From Selenomonas sputigena (lineage in GTDB: Bacteria; Bacillota; Negativicutes; Selenomonadales; Selenomonadaceae), in contig NZ_CP110383.1 in the NCBI RefSeq assembly GCF_026015965.1, positions 2,367,255 to 2,431,254 of the forward strand: 64,000 bases of DNA, read 5' to 3'. Under the pieces are notes generated by a model, which saw only the letters and a list, made by a program, of their open reading frames with translations, was not told the DNA's origin and searched no databases. Of this stretch, positions 4,844-40,166 are shown piece by piece. The translations under genes were made by a program, and so were the position numbers. Numbering within the stretch: position 1 is the first letter of the stretch; the number at the start of each line of letters is the position of its first letter.

Positions 4844-4890
4844 GACGATCTCTCCTTTGCGCACGGCGCACGGCTACGGTAAGCTACATG

Positions 4891-15353: not shown

Positions 15354-16775
15354 ATGGATTTTTCAGCAATCGGCATGGAGCTTGGTCTTCTTGCGCTCGC
15401 CCTGCTCTTTTTGGCGATGGGCGTGCTGCTGCCGAAGAAGGAATCGCGCACGAGTCTCGCGGCGATCTCGGTCGTCGCGCTTCTCGCGCTCTTCGCCTAC
15501 GGCTTTTCCTTCTATCGGGGCGGCGAGGCGGCGTCCTTCTACGCGGGGCTTTACGTCGTGGACAATTACGCCGTCTTCTTCAAGCAGCTCTTCATTTTGA
15601 GCGCGGCGCTTGTCGTGCTCTTTTCGAGCGACTATGTCGAAAGGCTTCTGCGCTCTCGTGCGGAGTTCTATGCGATCCTCGTCTTCGCCGTGCTTGGCAT
15701 GTGCGTCATGGCTTCGGCGAACGACTTCCTCACGCTTTACATCGGGCTGGAGCTTATGACGATCTCCTTCTATGTGTTCGTCGGACTCCGCCAGCGCGAT
15801 GCGCTTTCGAGCGAGGCGGCGATCAAGTACCTCGTCTTGGGCGCGGCGGCGTCCGCGATCCTCTTCTTCGGCGTCAGCCTCATCTACGGCGCTGCGGGCA
15901 GCCTGCGCTTTGCGGCGGTCGTGAGCAGCCCGCAGCTCTTCACGCCGCTCGGCATCGTCGGAATGGCGCTCGTCTTTGCCGGCATCTTCTTCAAGCTGTC
16001 GATGATACCGTTCCACATGTGGGCGCCCGACGTCTACGAGGGCGCGCCCGCGCCTGTCGCCGCGCTCCTCGCCATGGGGTCGAAGGCGGCGGCTTTCGCC
16101 GTGCTCCTGCGCCTTGTCTTGGCGGTATTCCCGCCGTTGGGTGGCATGTGGCTCTCGCTTTTGGCCATTCTCGCTGCCGTCTCGATGGTCGGCGGCAATG
16201 TCATGGCGATCGTGCAGGACGATGTGAAGCGCATGCTCGCATATTCTTCCATCGCGCAGGTCGGCTACATGCTCGTCGGCGTCGTCGCGGCGGATGCGGC
16301 GGGCATGAAGGCGCTGCTCTTCTACCTCGCGCTCTACGCCTTTGCGAACATCGGCGCTTTCGCCGTGCTGACCGCCGTCGAGGCGCAGCGCGGCAAGCCC
16401 GACATGGCGAACGTCGCGGGACTCGCGAGAACTGCGCCCGTCCTCGCCGCCGTCATGACGATCTCGCTGCTCTCGATGGCGGGCATCCCGCCGACGGCGG
16501 GCTTCGCCGGGAAGCTCTACCTCTTCACGGCGGTCGTCGATCAGGGCGGCCTGTGGCTCGCCTTCGTCGGCTTCATCATGTCGATGATCTCCGTCTACTA
16601 CTACCTGCTCGTCGTCAAGGCGATGTACCTCGGCGAAGGCCCGAAAGAACCCGTAAAGATCTCGGGCGCACTTCGTGCCTGCGTCCTCGTGAGCGTCGCT
16701 CTGACGCTCGCCCTCGGCGTCTATCCCGAGCCTTTGGCGAACCTCACGAACTTTGTGGCGGCGACGTTCTTTTGA
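15354..16775 (+). CDS. nuoN: Complex I subunit N (antiporter-like)
   Basis: 473-residue membrane subunit, last gene of the operon. Conserved segments are FLTLYIGLELMTISFYVFVG (about residues 124-143), the lysine-containing FKLSMIPFHMWAPDVYEGAP (about residues 213-232) and the helix MLAYSSIAQVGYMLVG. With NuoL and NuoM it makes up the three antiporter-like pumps. A strong terminator follows 13 nt after the stop. Confidence 0.95.
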   Translation: MDFSAIGMELGLLALALLFLAMGVLLPKKESRTSLAAISVVALLALFAYGFSFYRGGEAASFYAGLYVVDNYAVFFKQLFILSAALVVLFSSDYVERLLRSRAEFYAILVFAVLGMCVMASANDFLTLYIGLELMTISFYVFVGLRQRDALSSEAAIKYLVLGAAASAILFFGVSLIYGAAGSLRFAAVVSSPQLFTPLGIVGMALVFAGIFFKLSMIPFHMWAPDVYEGAPAPVAALLAMGSKAAAFAVLLRLVLAVFPPLGGMWLSLLAILAAVSMVGGNVMAIVQDDVKRMLAYSSIAQVGYMLVGVVAADAAGMKALLFYLALYAFANIGAFAVLTAVEAQRGKPDMANVAGLARTAPVLAAVMTISLLSMAGIPPTAGFAGKLYLFTAVVDQGGLWLAFVGFIMSMISVYYYLLVVKAMYLGEGPKEPVKISGALRACVLVSVALTLALGVYPEPLANLTNFVAATFF

Positions 16776-16788
16776 CGGATGGGAGAAA

Positions 16789-16822
16789 ACAGCCCTGCGG
16801 CTTGTGCCGCAGGGCTGTTTTG
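16789..16822 (+). terminator. nuo operon terminator
   Basis: AACAGCCCTGCGGC, a short loop, then GCCGCAGGGCTGTTTT. The same stem recurs after CRISPR arrays 1 and 2 and after deoC. Confidence 0.85.
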
Positions 16823-16860
16823 CTGGGGGGCGTGCCTTCCGCGCACGCTGTCACGCACAT

Positions 16861-17108
16861 GGTTGACAGCAATGCGTTTCCATGCTATACTTTGTTACAG
16901 TGAAGGAAGAGATTTTGGGGAAAATGCCATGAGTTTTAGATTTTTCCCGTGGACAAAAGTTTCCTTGATATTACAGGGGTTGCGGACGTTTTCAGCCGAT
17001 TTTGGCGACAAAAAAATCCCGCGGGGTTGCGGCGATTTGCCAAAAAGAGCGATCCGTTTAGAAAACCCGCTTCTGGGTTCAGCTGTCCCAAGGGCTGTGA
17101 GGGACGGT
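16861..17108 (+). promoter_or_regulatory. CRISPR leader 1 with promoter
   Basis: TTGACA (16863-16868), 17 nt, TATACT (16886-16891): a near-consensus promoter about 220 nt before the first repeat. The leader is almost identical to those at 18706-18954 and 21966-22214, from the promoter through to the first repeat. It contains an AACCCGCTTCTGGGTT hairpin near 17067. Unlike leaders 2 and 3, the sequence just upstream of the promoter is not shared. Confidence 0.85.
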
Positions 17109-17508
17109 ATTGCATGCAATCCATACCGCTTGCGGTATTGAAACTCCATTTTCCGTCCTTATCAACCACAATCTGCCAAATTGCATGCAATCCATACCGC
17201 TTGCGGTATTGAAACTCATCGATGTCCTCTCTAACATCAACGAGATCATCCATTGCATGCAATCCATACCGCTTGCGGTATTGAAACACGAATTCTGTTT
17301 GGGAGAGCGTATAATGTCCTGATTGCATGCAATCCATACCGCTTGCGGTATTGAAACACCGTCACGGGATGGCCTTCGAAGCCTTCAAACTCAATCGTAT
17401 TGCATGCAATCCATACCGCTTGCGGTATTGAAACCGAAGGGAATAGTTCCCCTCCATTTCCAGATAGCCATTATTGCATGCAATCCATACCGCTTGCGGT
17501 ATTGAAAA
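17109..17508 (+). CRISPR. CRISPR array 1: six repeats, five spacers
   Basis: 36-nt repeats start at 17109, 17180, 17252, 17322, 17399 and 17473. Spacers are 35, 36, 34, 41 and 38 nt. Each repeat is the 12-nt palindrome ATTGCATGCAAT, then CC, then ATACCGCTTGCGGTAT (a 7-bp inverted repeat around TT), then TGAAAC. The first five repeats look identical; the last ends AAAA in place of AAAC, marking the leader-distal end. The ATTGAAAC tail is common in type I-B and III repeats. Transcription is to the right from the leader promoter. No cas gene for adaptation or interference is adjacent. Confidence 0.97.
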
Positions 17509-17697: not shown

Positions 17698-18588
17698 TCA
17701 AACACGTTGGCTAACCAGAGCCGCATACTTCGCACGCTCGTCAGCCGGAATTTGCAGCACATCCATCGCCTTTTCTACGGAAAAATTCATGCTGTGCATC
17801 ACGTTGCGGATGGAGGTGGTCAAGCCTTCCTGTCGTCCTTCCTGCCGTCCTTCCTGTCGTCCTTCCTGCCTTCCATCCGCTCTCGCCTCTTCAGCGCGAA
17901 TCTCTAAGGCGCGTTCCTGATTCCAAGCAAAATTCAACATATCGAAGACCTCCTCCTGCTTCTGACGAAAATAATCCTCCAGATAATTATGTGCGATACA
18001 GTATCGCACAGACTCGCTTATAGCAGTTTCAAGCGCACTTCCGCTCTTGAGCCTTTCTCTCACCTTGGCGACGAAAACGCTGTAGCTTTTGAGCGCATGG
18101 CTTTTTTCCAGGATCGGACGATTCGGCTTGTCATTGATATTGAGGACTTTGACTGCAAGATCTATGTCTCCCCTGTAGTCATCAAAAGCATCTGACAGGT
18201 GCAGCGTCCATAGATCTGGCATTTCCACCTCACCGTTGTAGAATACATAAAACTTCGGTGCAGGCAAGGGGATCAATCTTTTCCGATAGACCGCATCGGC
18301 ATCCACATAGCGACGATAGATTTCTGCCAGATACATGAGCATTCTCAATGGCATGTTCGCATTGATCGTGCTTTGATGCTCGGTCAGGAGAACATGCTGA
18401 TTGCCGACGATAAAACCTACGTCATTCTTGATGCCTGAGAAAAGCGTTTCATTGATCGTGGCGAGCGTTATATCGCTGGCTGTCGTTTTAATGCCAAGAA
18501 GCGCCTCATAGATTTCTGGCAGTCTGTCTGCGTTGTTGAAGATGTCGCGAAAAAGAGAATCCCGGTATGCACGCTGCGGTTTCCTCAT
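17698..18588 (-). CDS. Rpn family / PD-(D/E)XK nuclease transposase-like protein
   Basis: 296-residue protein of the recombination-promoting nuclease (Rpn, transposase-like PD-(D/E)XK) family. It opens with SLFRDIFNNADRLPEIYEAL. The nuclease core segment VLLTEHQSTINANMPLRMLM (about residues 86-105) is typical of the family. The C-terminus has a tandem GRQE repeat (about residues 240-257) encoded by 12-bp DNA repeats, then a conserved tail AMDVLQIPADERAKYAALV. The ATG at 18588 follows AAAGGGGG. It lies between arrays 1 and 2, opposite to their direction. Its first 26 codons are duplicated upstream of the CARF gene, and a truncated relative lies at 51907. Confidence 0.8.
   Translation of the reverse strand: MRKPQRAYRDSLFRDIFNNADRLPEIYEALLGIKTTASDITLATINETLFSGIKNDVGFIVGNQHVLLTEHQSTINANMPLRMLMYLAEIYRRYVDADAVYRKRLIPLPAPKFYVFYNGEVEMPDLWTLHLSDAFDDYRGDIDLAVKVLNINDKPNRPILEKSHALKSYSVFVAKVRERLKSGSALETAISESVRYCIAHNYLEDYFRQKQEEVFDMLNFAWNQERALEIRAEEARADGRQEGRQEGRQEGRQEGLTTSIRNVMHSMNFSVEKAMDVLQIPADERAKYAALVSQRV
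17822..17870. repeat. 12-bp tandem repeats inside the Rpn gene
   Basis: About four 12-bp units (CCTTCCTGTCGT with C/T changes) encode the GRQE repeats. Multiples of 12 keep the frame, so copy-number change would lengthen or shorten the linker without a frameshift. Confidence 0.8.
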
Positions 18589-18609
18589 CGAACTGCCCCC
18601 CTTTATCAT

Positions 18610-18639
18610 ATTATACTATAAGCCGCGCCATCCGGACAA
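18610..18639 (-). promoter_or_regulatory. Rpn gene promoter
   Basis: On the minus strand TTGTCC (18634-18639), an 18-nt spacer and TATAAT (18610-18615), about 22 nt from the ATG. Confidence 0.6.
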
Positions 18640-18705
18640 GGAGTGTTGGTGGTTTCGGCTGTATCATCCTGCGCATCGAAGCGCTCTCGACGCCCTCATG
18701 TACAC

Positions 18706-18954
18706 GGTTGACAGCGGACATATTTCCATGCTATACTTTGTTACAGTGAAGGAACGAATTTCGGGGAAAGTGCCATGAGTTTTAGATTTTCCCCGTGGAC
18801 AAAAGTTTCCTTGATATTACAGGGGTTGCGGACGTTTTCAGCCGATTTTGGCGACAAAAAAATCCCGCGAGGTTGCGGCGATTTGCCAAAAAGAGCGATC
18901 CGTTTAGAAAACCCGCTTCTGGGTTTAGCTGTCCCAAGGGCTGTGAGGGACGGT
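18706..18954 (+). promoter_or_regulatory. CRISPR leader 2 with promoter
   Basis: TTGACA (18708-18713), an 18-nt spacer and TATACT (18732-18737). The rest of the leader follows leader 1 with few base changes. Confidence 0.85.
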
Positions 18955-19277
18955 ATTGCATGCAATCCATACCGCTTGCGGTATTGAAACGCTTATAATC
19001 CCGCTTTTGCAACAATGGAAGCATCAGATTGCATGCAATCCATACCGCTTGCGGTATTGAAACAAAATCTGTTATGATTGACCATGGAGATGGTATTCAA
19101 TTGCATGCAATCCATACCGCTTGCGGTATTGAAACACATCATCGCGTTTGCACGCCTCTTTAACGATGGTTATTGCATGCAATCCATACCGCTTGCGGTA
19201 TTGAAACTTGACAAAGCCGCCCTGCCGACTAAAGCGCGGCCATTGCATGCAATCCATACCGCTTGCGGTATTGAAAA
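18955..19277 (+). CRISPR. CRISPR array 2: five repeats, four spacers
   Basis: Repeats start at 18955, 19028, 19100, 19172 and 19242, with the same 36-nt sequence as array 1; the last again ends AAAA. Spacers are 37, 36, 36 and 34 nt. The third spacer (19136-19171) shares about 23 nt, with one mismatch, with the last spacer of array 3. The second spacer (19064-19099) can be read as SVMIDHGDGIQ, close to the M23 metallopeptidase motif, so it may target a phage lysin or tail gene. The 3' flank matches that of array 1. Confidence 0.97.
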
Positions 19278-19317
19278 AGGACAGATTCGTGCAGAATCCC
19301 TAAGAGGATGAAAATAA

Positions 19318-19340
19318 GCCCTGCGGCAGAGCCGCAGGGC
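19318..19340 (+). terminator. Decayed terminator after array 2
   Basis: The stem GCCCTGCGGC/GCCGCAGGGC is kept, but the T-run seen after array 1 is replaced by CGGTATATG, so termination may be weak. Convergent transcription of the csx20-like gene ends nearby. Confidence 0.5.
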
Positions 19341-19504
19341 CGGTATATGTATGCAGTTTTCCTAGCAGTGTATGTGTCTTTCGAGCAGCGGCAGCGCTTC
19401 CTCGAAAGGCGTCCTTAGATCCTGTGCCCGCCGGGCTTGCTGTATCCTTCTTCCTCCATGACGTTCCTCATGGCCGGCCTCGCGGCAAAGACTCGTCCGG
19501 ACGC

Positions 19505-19867
19505 TCACCGATACTCGCGAAACCGCGTGAAGACGAAGCGGCTGATCTTGCGTGCCGAACCGTCTTCCGCCTGCTCCTCGATCGCCTCCCTGCGGCTCGT
19601 TGCCGCAAGGACAGTTACGCCCGCCGCACGCAGGAGGTTCACGAGATGGTAGACGTAGGTGAACTCGCCCTGACACAATACGGCGCAAGGCTTCTCCGCC
19701 AAGATCTTCGCGGCATTCTCCGCAGCGACTTTCGCGACGCGCTCCTCGTCCCAATCCGCCCCGATGTCGGGAAACGGCAGATCCTCGATCTCGCCCCAAG
19801 TGCGCGCCGCCTCTTTCTGCGCCGTCGGCCACTTCGCCGAGGCATGGTTCGTATGGTTGATGAACAT
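19505..19867 (-). CDS. Csx20-like small CRISPR-associated protein
   Basis: 120 residues. An N-terminal beta strand ends in an NH motif (MFINHTNHASAKW), and the C-terminal half has a nucleotide-binding-like pattern: CQGEFTYVYHLVNLLRAAGV (about residues 64-83), ATSRREAIEE, and a final RFVFTRFREYR. The G-E/D-F, A-T-x-R-R and F-x-x-F-R-x-Y pattern is what I recall for Csx20-type proteins, small Rossmann-like CRISPR accessories proposed as ring nucleases that degrade cyclic oligoadenylate. The ATG follows AGGAGGAA, 11 nt after the CARF gene stop, so the two form an operon. The function is inferred. Confidence 0.6.
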   Translation of the reverse strand: MFINHTNHASAKWPTAQKEAARTWGEIEDLPFPDIGADWDEERVAKVAAENAAKILAEKPCAVLCQGEFTYVYHLVNLLRAAGVTVLAATSRREAIEEQAEDGSARKISRFVFTRFREYR

Positions 19868-19878
19868 GCAGCTTCCTC

Positions 19879-21738
19879 CTATGCGTTTCTAAGCCTTTCG
19901 ATGTAGGCGGCGATCTCTTCTTCCAGCCGGTCGTTTTCCGACGCACCTTGATTTCTGCGAGCCGTAGGCGCATTTTCGGCAGCGTGGTTCGTATCGTTGC
20001 GACCTTGGCGGATGAAATAGAAACCGCGCAAAAAATCGACGGCTTCCTCCGTCGCCTTCTGCGTATACATCAAAAGTTTCCCGTGGCCCGATAGCATCCT
20101 GCGGTAGCAAGCTTCCCGGCGCAGCCATTTCTCTTCGGGAGATTGTTGCTTCTTCGCGGTGCGTCTCTTTCTGGAGGTTGGATTTTTTCTGGCGCACGCC
20201 TCTCCACATTTCTTGCCGTCTATGCCCAGCGCGGTGAAAATATCCTCATTCGAGCTGCCTGCCAAGCGCCGCAAAATCTCTTCATGAAAAAACTTCTTCT
20301 TCGGCGATGGATGCAAAATGGCGATGGTACGGTCGATGATGGCATTGCGCGTGCGGAAATCTATCTGTCGCAAATCATAGTTCCGCCATTTGGAGGCGAT
20401 TTCATCGTAAGCGGCAAAAAAACTTTGCACGCCTCGTTTCATTTCCGGCGGCAAGTCCTCGACTCTTGTGCGAACTCCGCTGCTCAGTATCGTGCGAAGG
20501 AGGTTCGTCATTTCCTTGAAGGAAGCGTTATGGAAATCTCCTTCTGGAACAGACGTCGTCGGCGATTTCACTTCTTTGCTTTCCGTCACCTGGCCATACG
20601 AATTGATGAACTCCTGCTGCCAGCTCCGCATTCCCGCGCCGGAATCGCCGCGCTCTTGGCATTGCTCGATGACCTCTTCATCCTCCGTATAGCAGATTTT
20701 CTTCTCCACCAAGATCGCCGGAATCCACTCCGTGCAAAGTGTCATTGCTTGCTGCAGGAATTTCTTCTGCACGCACCACGCGATGATGTCGAGGCGACGA
20801 TCCGATTTCTCGCCCGACGCATTCTTGATGACAGAGCCGTATTCTCCCTCGATGACGCCGAGGATGTGCGAGAACATCTCCTCTTCGATGGAAGCGGGCT
20901 TCGACTGGCGAAAGGCGCGAATCTTCTCGGCGAGATCGGTCATCTCGTCTTCGATGACGCTCGTGCGGCAGATGCGTATGGCGTCGGAAAAGCGCCGCAT
21001 GGCGGCAAAGAGCGTGGAAAAATCCTCGCTGTGACGCGGACTGCGGCTGAAATACTCCTCCAGAGCCTGTACACTGCCGTACTTCTGGAACTCGTCCGCA
21101 CCCGCGACGAGGTCGAACATGCGGCGAATATCATCCGTCAGATGAACGCGGCTCTCCCCGCCCCGAACAAGATCCGAATATACGACATGCCCCATGCGGA
21201 TGCCCATGTACTTCGACAACTGCATGACGACGAGCAGCATCATCGCCGCATAGCGAAAGCCGCCCGTCATATCGGCATGAAGGACGAGCTCTGCCTCAGG
21301 CTCTTTTTCGTGCACGCGTTCGGCAAAGGCGCGAACACGCTCCGCGATGCCCGCAATGCTGCGCATCGAATCCTCGATGCCCATTTTCGAATATTCGCTG
21401 TCCTCGAACACCTGCGCGAGCTCCGGGTACTTCCTCGCGCTCTGCGCCTTCAAAAGCTCGACGGCGGACATCGACTCAGAACCGTATTTCTCCATCAGTG
21501 CCAGCCAATCTGCCGAATTCCGCGTCACCTTCTCGCGCGCTTGATCTGTCTCGATCAGAATGATTTTCGCCAAGCCGCCTTCCGCCCGCAGCAGAGACTG
21601 CAGCTGACAAACGGCGGCTTCGTTCGTCTGCATGCACGAAAATATCTCCTTCCCATCGACGCTCCGATATTCGACGTTCGTCGGATTATTCGCCAACTGA
21701 CTCACGAAAGCCACCATCACATGAACATTTTTCGTCAT
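19879..21738 (-). CDS. CARF-HEPN ribonuclease (TM1812/Csx1-Csm6-like)
   Basis: 619 residues. The N-terminal Rossmann-type CARF domain has a D-x-T-G-G-F-R motif (HADMTGGFRYAAMMLLVVMQ, about residues 154-173), which binds cyclic oligoadenylate in TM1812/Csx1 families. The C-terminus has a HEPN RNase motif, R580-N-D-T-N-H585. Together these indicate a cOA-activated RNase. ATG at 21738 follows GGGGGAAGG. The reading frame stays open for 41 more codons, through a remnant of the Rpn gene start to a GTG, so an N-terminally extended form is possible. The promoter is the duplicated Rpn promoter. No cas10 is nearby, so the signal must come from elsewhere. Confidence 0.85.
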   Translation of the reverse strand: MTKNVHVMVAFVSQLANNPTNVEYRSVDGKEIFSCMQTNEAAVCQLQSLLRAEGGLAKIILIETDQAREKVTRNSADWLALMEKYGSESMSAVELLKAQSARKYPELAQVFEDSEYSKMGIEDSMRSIAGIAERVRAFAERVHEKEPEAELVLHADMTGGFRYAAMMLLVVMQLSKYMGIRMGHVVYSDLVRGGESRVHLTDDIRRMFDLVAGADEFQKYGSVQALEEYFSRSPRHSEDFSTLFAAMRRFSDAIRICRTSVIEDEMTDLAEKIRAFRQSKPASIEEEMFSHILGVIEGEYGSVIKNASGEKSDRRLDIIAWCVQKKFLQQAMTLCTEWIPAILVEKKICYTEDEEVIEQCQERGDSGAGMRSWQQEFINSYGQVTESKEVKSPTTSVPEGDFHNASFKEMTNLLRTILSSGVRTRVEDLPPEMKRGVQSFFAAYDEIASKWRNYDLRQIDFRTRNAIIDRTIAILHPSPKKKFFHEEILRRLAGSSNEDIFTALGIDGKKCGEACARKNPTSRKRRTAKKQQSPEEKWLRREACYRRMLSGHGKLLMYTQKATEEAVDFLRGFYFIRQGRNDTNHAAENAPTARRNQGASENDRLEEEIAAYIERLRNA

Positions 21739-21771: not shown

Positions 21772-21849
21772 TATTTCCAGCAGTCTGTCTGCGTTGTTGA
21801 AGATGTCGCGAAAAAGAGAGTCCCCGTATGCATGCTGCGCTTTCCTCAT
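21772..21849 (-). pseudogene. 5' remnant of a second Rpn gene
   Basis: 26 codons (SLFRDIFNNADRLLEI at the end) match the start of the Rpn protein at 18588, then similarity stops and the CARF gene leader begins. It is in frame with the CARF gene. Confidence 0.8.
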
Positions 21850-21869
21850 AGAACGGCTCACTTTTTCAT

Positions 21870-21899
21870 ATTATACTATAAGCCGTGCCATCCGGACAA
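21870..21899 (-). promoter_or_regulatory. Promoter captured by the CARF operon
   Basis: TTGTCC (21894-21899), 18 nt, TATAAT (21870-21875) on the minus strand: the same promoter as at 18610-18639, now upstream of the CARF and Csx20-like genes. Confidence 0.55.
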
Positions 21900-21965
21900 G
21901 GAGTGCTGGTGGCTTCGGCTGCATCATCCTGCGCATCGAAGCACTCTCACCGCCCTCATGTACAC

Positions 21966-22214
21966 GGTTGACAGCGGACATATTTCTATGCTATACTTTG
22001 TTACAGTGAAGGAAGAGATTTTGGGGAAAATGCCATGAGTTTTAGATTTTTCCCGTGGACAAAAGTTTCCTTGGTATCACAGGGTTTGCGGACGTTTTCA
22101 GCCGATTTTGGCGACAAAAAAATCCCGCGAGGTTGCGGCGATTTGTCCAAAAGAGCGATCCGTTTAGAAAACCCGCTTCTGGGTTCAGCTGTCCCAAGGG
22201 CTGTGAGGGACGGT
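21966..22214 (+). promoter_or_regulatory. CRISPR leader 3 with promoter
   Basis: TTGACA (21968-21973), an 18-nt spacer and TATACT (21992-21997), then a leader very similar to leaders 1 and 2. Confidence 0.85.
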
Positions 22215-22536
22215 ATTGCATGCAATCCATACCGCTTGCGGTATTGAAACATAAAAGATGTTTTTTATAATGAAAGGAGTGGTTTATTGCATGCAATCCA
22301 TACCGCTTGCGGTATTGAAACATGATCACTTCTCCTTTTCAAAATAAGAATAAACAAATTGCATGCAATCCATACCGCTTGCGGTATTGAAACGCCGCCG
22401 TATCGGCGTGGCCGATATACGACTCAAATTGCATGCAATCCATACCGCTTGCGGTATTGAAACCTTGCACGCCTCTTTAACGAGGGTGGAGGTCAAGTAA
22501 ATTGCATGCAATCCATACCGCTTGCGGTGTTAACAC
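22215..22536 (+). CRISPR. CRISPR array 3: five repeats, four spacers
   Basis: Repeats start at 22215, 22286, 22358, 22428 and 22501. Spacers are 35, 36, 34 and 37 nt. The last repeat is degenerate after GCGGT (GTTAACAC in place of ATTGAAAC) and marks the distal end. The final spacer (22464-22500) overlaps in content with the third spacer of array 2. The 3' flank differs from arrays 1 and 2. Confidence 0.97.
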
Positions 22537-30034: not shown

Positions 30035-30190
30035 ACCAATCGGTCTGCGCCTTTTGGCTTGACCTCTTGGGGTTTCATGGTAAGCTACACGCACAAACGT
30101 CCACTTTGTGGACATTGTGCGCCGCCCTTACAGAAGCCTAGCCGATCAGCCTGCGCCTTCGGCTTGACTTCTCGGGGCTTCATGGTACAC
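30035..30190 (+). repeat. Promoter-like interspersed repeat, double copy B
   Basis: Two copies separated by a hairpin segment (CGCACAAACGTCCAC / GTGGACATTGTGCG). The second copy ends TTGACT, 16 nt, TACACT with an upstream TG, 40 nt before deoC, giving a plausible promoter for it. Confidence 0.75.
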
Positions 30191-39997: not shown

Positions 39998-40166
39998 CCC
40001 ATCTGTCTGTGTCTTTGGTTTGATTTCTTGGACTTTCACGCTAATTTTAGAGGAGCGTAAACTACACGCACAAACGTCCACTTTGTGGACATTGTGCGCC
40101 GCCCTTACAGAAGCCTAGCCAATCGGTCTGCACCTTCGGCTTGACCTCTTGGGGCTTCATGGTAAA
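39998..40166 (+). repeat. Promoter-like interspersed repeat, copy C
   Basis: A degenerate copy at 39998-40043 is followed by the CGCACAAACGTCCAC hairpin segment (40066-40099) and an intact copy (to 40166). The intact copy ends TTGACC, 16 nt, TAAAAT with an upstream TG, and faces the MarR gene. Confidence 0.75.

Follow-up and report, generated by a model that had tools for sequence, protein, structure and literature searches.

The window, a 64,000-nt stretch of the Selenomonas sputigena chromosome (NZ_CP110383.1, positions 2,367,255 to 2,431,254), encodes a 619-aa protein that sequence profiles and a predicted structure identify as a CARF-HEPN effector of the Csx1/Csm6 type, followed by a 120-aa protein assigned to the Csx20 family. 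We consider it highly probable that the two constitute an RNase effector and an extrinsic ring nuclease of the type III-D systems of this host, encoded apart from these systems and acting in trans.

Counted from the ATG at 21738 on the minus strand, the effector gene encodes 619 aa; the mechanical open reading frame is longer (660 aa), its start lying upstream in a remnant of an rpn gene. The protein matches the PADLOC profile CARF2--CARF_HEPN with 800 bits (E=3e-241); Pfam and NCBIfam yielded nothing useful for it, with no NCBIfam equivalog above cut-off, and a sequence search of the PDB gave no convincing match for either protein of the pair. The extent of this reading frame and the 11-nt distance to the next gene are as given in an earlier note on this DNA, and the D-x-T-G-G-F-R and R-N-x-x-x-H motifs that it picked out are indeed present, as D156-M-T-G-G-F-R162 in the CARF domain and R580-N-D-T-N-H585 in the HEPN domain. 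Across 24 homologues, with identities as low as 24%, residues D156, T158, G159, G160, R162, R580, N581, and H585 never vary, and the motif residues are invariant as well in all 30 homologues of a second alignment set, which indicates that the two motifs did not arise by chance. In the AlphaFold2 model, for which homologues were included (mean pLDDT of 85), residues 1-200 are predicted to form a Rossmann-type (α/β) CARF domain, and R580-H585 lie near the end of a helix (563-589) that is followed by another (594-618), as in a HEPN-type helix pair with its R-x4-6-H motif. Both structural elements on which the earlier note staked its reading are thus found in the model. A large helical region (about 240-560) occupies the middle of the protein. 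The best matches of the model in the PDB are Csx1-Crn2 from Marinitoga (E=2e-8), Csx1 from S. islandicus (1e-5), and Csm6 from T. thermophilus (2e-5), and Csx1-Crn2 and some of the matching Csm6 entries are complexes with cA4. In these two families, Csx1 responds to cA4 and most Csm6 proteins to cA6. Compared with its congeneric orthologue, the gene shows a dN/dS of 0.16, that is, purifying selection.

As for the smaller protein, its gene is separated from the effector gene by positions 19868-19878, and its Shine-Dalgarno sequence (TAGGAGG) overlaps the effector stop codon. The assignment to Csx20, which the earlier note had put forward, is borne out by the PADLOC Csx20 profile (124.6 bits, E=7e-37) and by conserved family residues, Q66-G67-E68, S91, R93, F113, and Y119 being invariant across 16 aligned sequences; the match to the NCBIfam model CAS_Csx20 (NF040559), at 48 bits, falls short of the cut-off of 70. 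The AF2 model (pLDDT of 96) has weak matches in the PDB, the best being cA4-bound Cam1 (E=3e-3, TM 0.43). This gene, too, is under purifying selection relative to its congeneric orthologue (dN/dS of 0.16). Calling Csx20 a proposed ring nuclease, as the earlier note did, is outdated, since a representative of the family degrades cA4; the family is also linked especially strongly to Csx1 (PMC12409355).

Features of the window in and around the CARF-HEPN/csx20 pair
Feature	Position	Strand	Evidence
CARF-HEPN effector gene (Csx1-like, 619 aa)	19879..21738	-	PADLOC PDLC01829 (800 bits), invariant motifs, AF2 model, dN/dS
csx20 ring nuclease gene (120 aa)	19505..19867	-	PADLOC PDLC01397, alignment, AF2 model, sequence
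Promoter-like site TTGTCC-18-TATAAT, reads into pair	21870..21899	-	Consensus scan only
Terminator-like hairpin past csx20	19317..19341	-	Consensus scan only
Remnant, 3' end of second CARF-HEPN gene (CARF2)	19377..19436	-	87% identity over 61 nt to congener CARF2
Remnant, 5' end of rpn (PD-(D/E)XK-type) gene, fused upstream of CARF-HEPN gene	21773..21865	-	88% identical to 18512-18604
Intact rpn-family gene (303 aa), slot between arrays 1 and 2	17698..18609	-	Pfam Transposase_31 above cut-off
CRISPR array 1, 6 repeats (repeat ATTGCATGCAATCCATACCGCTTGCGGTATTGAAAC)	17109..17507	+	
CRISPR array 2, 5 repeats	18955..19276	+	
CRISPR array 3, 5 repeats, final one degenerate	22215..22531	+	
Leader-like repeat copy 1	16755..17054	+	Repeat family D3
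Leader-like repeat copy 2	18601..18900	+	Repeat family D3
Leader-like repeat copy 3	21861..22160	+	Repeat family D3

The pair is flanked by CRISPR arrays in the window, as had been noted. Searches of the window found no cas10, so the earlier description of the pair as lacking this gene holds at that scale; the window is small relative to the genome, for which the description fails. The single contig of 2.61 Mb carries two type III-D operons, beside both of which the repeat of the three arrays of the window recurs (at 2.113-2.126 Mb and at 0.449 Mb). The nearer operon, at 2.11 Mb, sits 266 kb from the pair, and the other lies near 0.44 Mb. Both encode Cas10, Csx10, Cas7-type proteins, and Csx19, the 0.449 Mb operon having Cas6 and Cas1 in addition. 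Their assignment to type III-D follows from Csx19 (TIGR03984; 110 and 107 bits, cut-off 35), from matches of both to Csx10 (TIGR02674) that fall below its cut-off, and from PADLOC, which classes both large subunits as Cas10d (391 and 341 bits). A match to the Cas10 palm family PF22335, which hits E. coli as well, was not trusted by itself, and the operons were read directly. The GGDD cyclase motif is intact in both Cas10 proteins, which begin directly with a palm-type stretch, LFDTRSIQKYIF, and therefore, as read from the sequence, appear to be devoid of an N-terminal HD domain. Such a domain is found in only 3% of III-D loci, and III-D systems probably rely on cyclic oligoadenylate signaling (PMC11229360). 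Of the two origins of the activator that the earlier note had offered, a type III system elsewhere is therefore favored by two cyclase-competent operons sharing the repeat; a signal of other origin need not be invoked, and a search of the genome for the SMODS family (CD-NTase, PF18144) gave no match.

The second CARF-HEPN gene of the genome is found near one III-D operon only (locus L023), while no CARF gene is present in the 20 kb read at the other (L024). This paralogue (L031:8688-10577) lies about 8 kb from the nearest cas gene of the 2.11 Mb operon, so the pair is perhaps not the sole effector of that operon and may be one of two outputs. Its end is overlapped by a gene for a 716-aa protein (L031:10577-12724, near 2.107 Mb), possibly an unnamed CARF partner, for which Pfam and PADLOC gave no match; in Anaerovibrio slackiae this protein is found again (L091:6762-8870), next to CARF-HEPN and Csx20.

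We propose that a III-D complex loaded with crRNA from whichever of the arrays sharing the repeat would bind phage RNA, and that its Cas10, with an intact GGDD motif and apparently no HD nuclease domain, would then make a cyclic oligoadenylate. This is most likely cA4, judging from the Csx1-like fold of the effector and from the degradation of cA4 by the tested Csx20 representative (PMC12409355). The diffusible messenger would bind the CARF dimer and activate the HEPN site (R580, N581, and H585), which would cut RNA non-specifically, and Csx20, probably encoded on the same mRNA, would degrade cA4 and turn the response off. Because the messenger is diffusible, the pair may be shared by both operons; moreover, signaling of this kind needs no gene linkage, so separation of the pair from its operon need not have cost function.

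That the pair formerly adjoined a III-D operon is indicated by a congener (G001) in which nuoN, the pair, and a III-D operon all lie within 28 kb. The order there is nuoN (167.6-169.0 kb), then CARF2, Csx20, and CARF1 (181.4-185.5 kb), an rpn fragment, and the III-D operon (187.7-195.7 kb), and the pair is 2.2 kb from cas10, compared with 266 kb in the present genome. The corresponding DNA is 98% identical for nuoN, 91% for the pair (over 2.4 kb), and 96% for the III-D operon, which matches the operon found here at 2.11 Mb over 6.3 kb. While nuoN and the pair are still together in the present genome, homology to the congener ends at 21923, inside an rpn/leader unit, and the hsp20 region, which lies beyond array 3, has its counterpart at 2.50 Mb in the congener. 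The rpn/leader/array unit spanning the break exists in several copies, about 82-87% identical, at both places, which makes recombination between copies the likely cause. A chromosomal rearrangement with its breakpoint in this repeated unit split the pair from its III-D operon.

The neighborhood of the pair shows further traces of change. The CARF2 gene, intact in the congener (L032), is deleted here but for its 3' end, and two WYL-type regulator genes that adjoin the pair in the congener are absent from it in this genome. The rpn 5' remnant, by contrast, is present in the congener too; it therefore predates the split of the two genomes, and we dropped the idea that the pair was recently inserted into an rpn gene. 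The 303-aa rpn-family protein of the window scores 40.9 bits against TIGR01784, below the cut-off of 52.1. At several places in both genomes (17698-18609, 21773-21865, and L023:13352-14257), rpn-family genes or fragments fill the slots between leader-array units, a pattern that looks as if these units and rpn were copied together. A separate dispersed repeat of 108 nt occurs in copies 94% identical at 30080-30187 and 40057-40164, with a shorter copy near 4890. No match was found for the array region in a phage collection or for the pair among plasmids.

A single-protein query over genome contigs retrieved nothing, and a query with the homologue alignment retrieved relatives, mostly in Selenomonadaceae. 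III-D core genes are nearby in 26 of the 44 related loci from public genomes, many of the others ending at contig ends. Csx20 is found in 14 of the 44, in 11 of these within 60 nt of a CARF gene and on the same strand. Among 189 genomes of the family, 54 have a CARF-HEPN relative and 51 a III-D Cas10; 47 have both (Fisher p=5e-32, a value that ignores kinship between genomes), leaving seven with a CARF-HEPN relative and no detectable Cas10 of this one subtype. Six related loci stand alone, no III-D core gene being present in flanks that extend about 9 kb or more in both directions, and the III-D Cas10 query found nothing in two of the genomes behind such loci. The CARF-HEPN relatives at L103 (Mitsuokella sp. 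oral taxon 131) and L099 are alone in about 20 kb, their genomes being negative in this query, which is confined to the III-D subtype. In a closed genome of another genus (G038), a related CARF-HEPN gene and two WYL-type genes are found at 0.39 Mb, 1.7 Mb away from the III-D operon, which sits at 2.08 Mb with a second CARF-HEPN gene and a Csx20 of its own. As read from gene order, effectors and operons have consequently been separated at least twice, independently.

We suggest, with some hesitation, that the pair between the arrays, apart from any cas operon, serves two III-D complexes as a common trans-acting output, which would make it a natural case of inter-locus signaling, and that repeated array/rpn units are recombination points at which effectors and operons are reshuffled. 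A further step, which we take more tentatively still, would be that the pair is a hub for both complexes whose carriage apart was selected rather than accidental. The presence of two Cas10 operons, with a second effector near one of them only and no CARF gene at L024, would fit such selection, as would the independent displacement in another genus and the published finding that loci without an effector are overrepresented in genomes that have several type III loci (PMC11229360). However, rearrangement between repeated array units accounts for the position of the pair without selection, and the sample is small.

It is improbable, in our view, that the pair, once displaced, has become a vanishing relic, poorly expressed or silent since the loss of the operon, CARF2, and the WYL regulators. 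The deletion of the adjoining CARF2 gene, the missing regulator genes, and the rpn fragment upstream of the pair are what decay might leave behind, but both reading frames are intact, every catalytic residue is kept, and a promoter-like site remains. The dN/dS of 0.16 for each gene also speaks against decay, although it is averaged since the congener split and is compatible with a recent onset. Least probable is a stand-alone defense module answering to a non-type III source such as a CBASS-type cyclase: the window without cas10, the six solitary loci, and the two genomes behind such loci without a III-D Cas10 match would suit it, but this genome has two cyclase-competent Cas10 proteins with the same repeat and no SMODS match, and linkage to III-D is seen both in the congener and across the family.

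An effector and ring nuclease of the III-D systems, acting in trans, would bear on a survey from 2024, which counted 133 type III loci expected to signal yet lacking an effector, and raised the question of whether such loci switch on effectors whose genes lie elsewhere (PMC11229360). A closed genome with a displaced pair, set against a congener in which the pair is linked, offers a natural linked/unlinked comparison for this hypothesis of inter-locus signaling, and it illustrates that surveys confined to a few kilobases around cas10 miss effectors. The parts belong to known families in a known combination; what merits keeping is the arrangement, a displaced pair in a genome with two III-D loci that is linked in a congener. 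Like Csx1, a cA4-activated CARF-HEPN RNase (e.g., the S. islandicus protein, PDB 6qzt, among the best structural matches), the effector has a CARF domain, a C-terminal HEPN motif R-N-x3-H, and an association with type III systems, but it is longer, with a large middle helical region, and only about 11% identical in structural alignment. The Marinitoga Csx1-Crn2 fusion (PMC7293037; PDB 8y7g), the top structural match, likewise combines an RNase with a cA4 ring nuclease, whereas here RNase and ring nuclease come from two neighboring genes, with Csx20 in place of Crn2. Both halves of the PADLOC fusion profile CARF2--CARF_HEPN_CSX20 (PDLC01843) are matched (CARF part 83 bits, Csx20 67 bits), by proteins that are unfused here. 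While III-D ancillary modules usually, if not by strict definition, sit beside the cas10 operon, this pair does not. A further counterpart is the III-D effector module of Selenomonadaceae (CARF1, Csx20, CARF2, two WYL regulators, and the III-D operon), with which the pair shares its genes, at 91% DNA identity in the congener; in the present genome CARF2 and the WYL genes have been lost and the operon lies 266 kb away.
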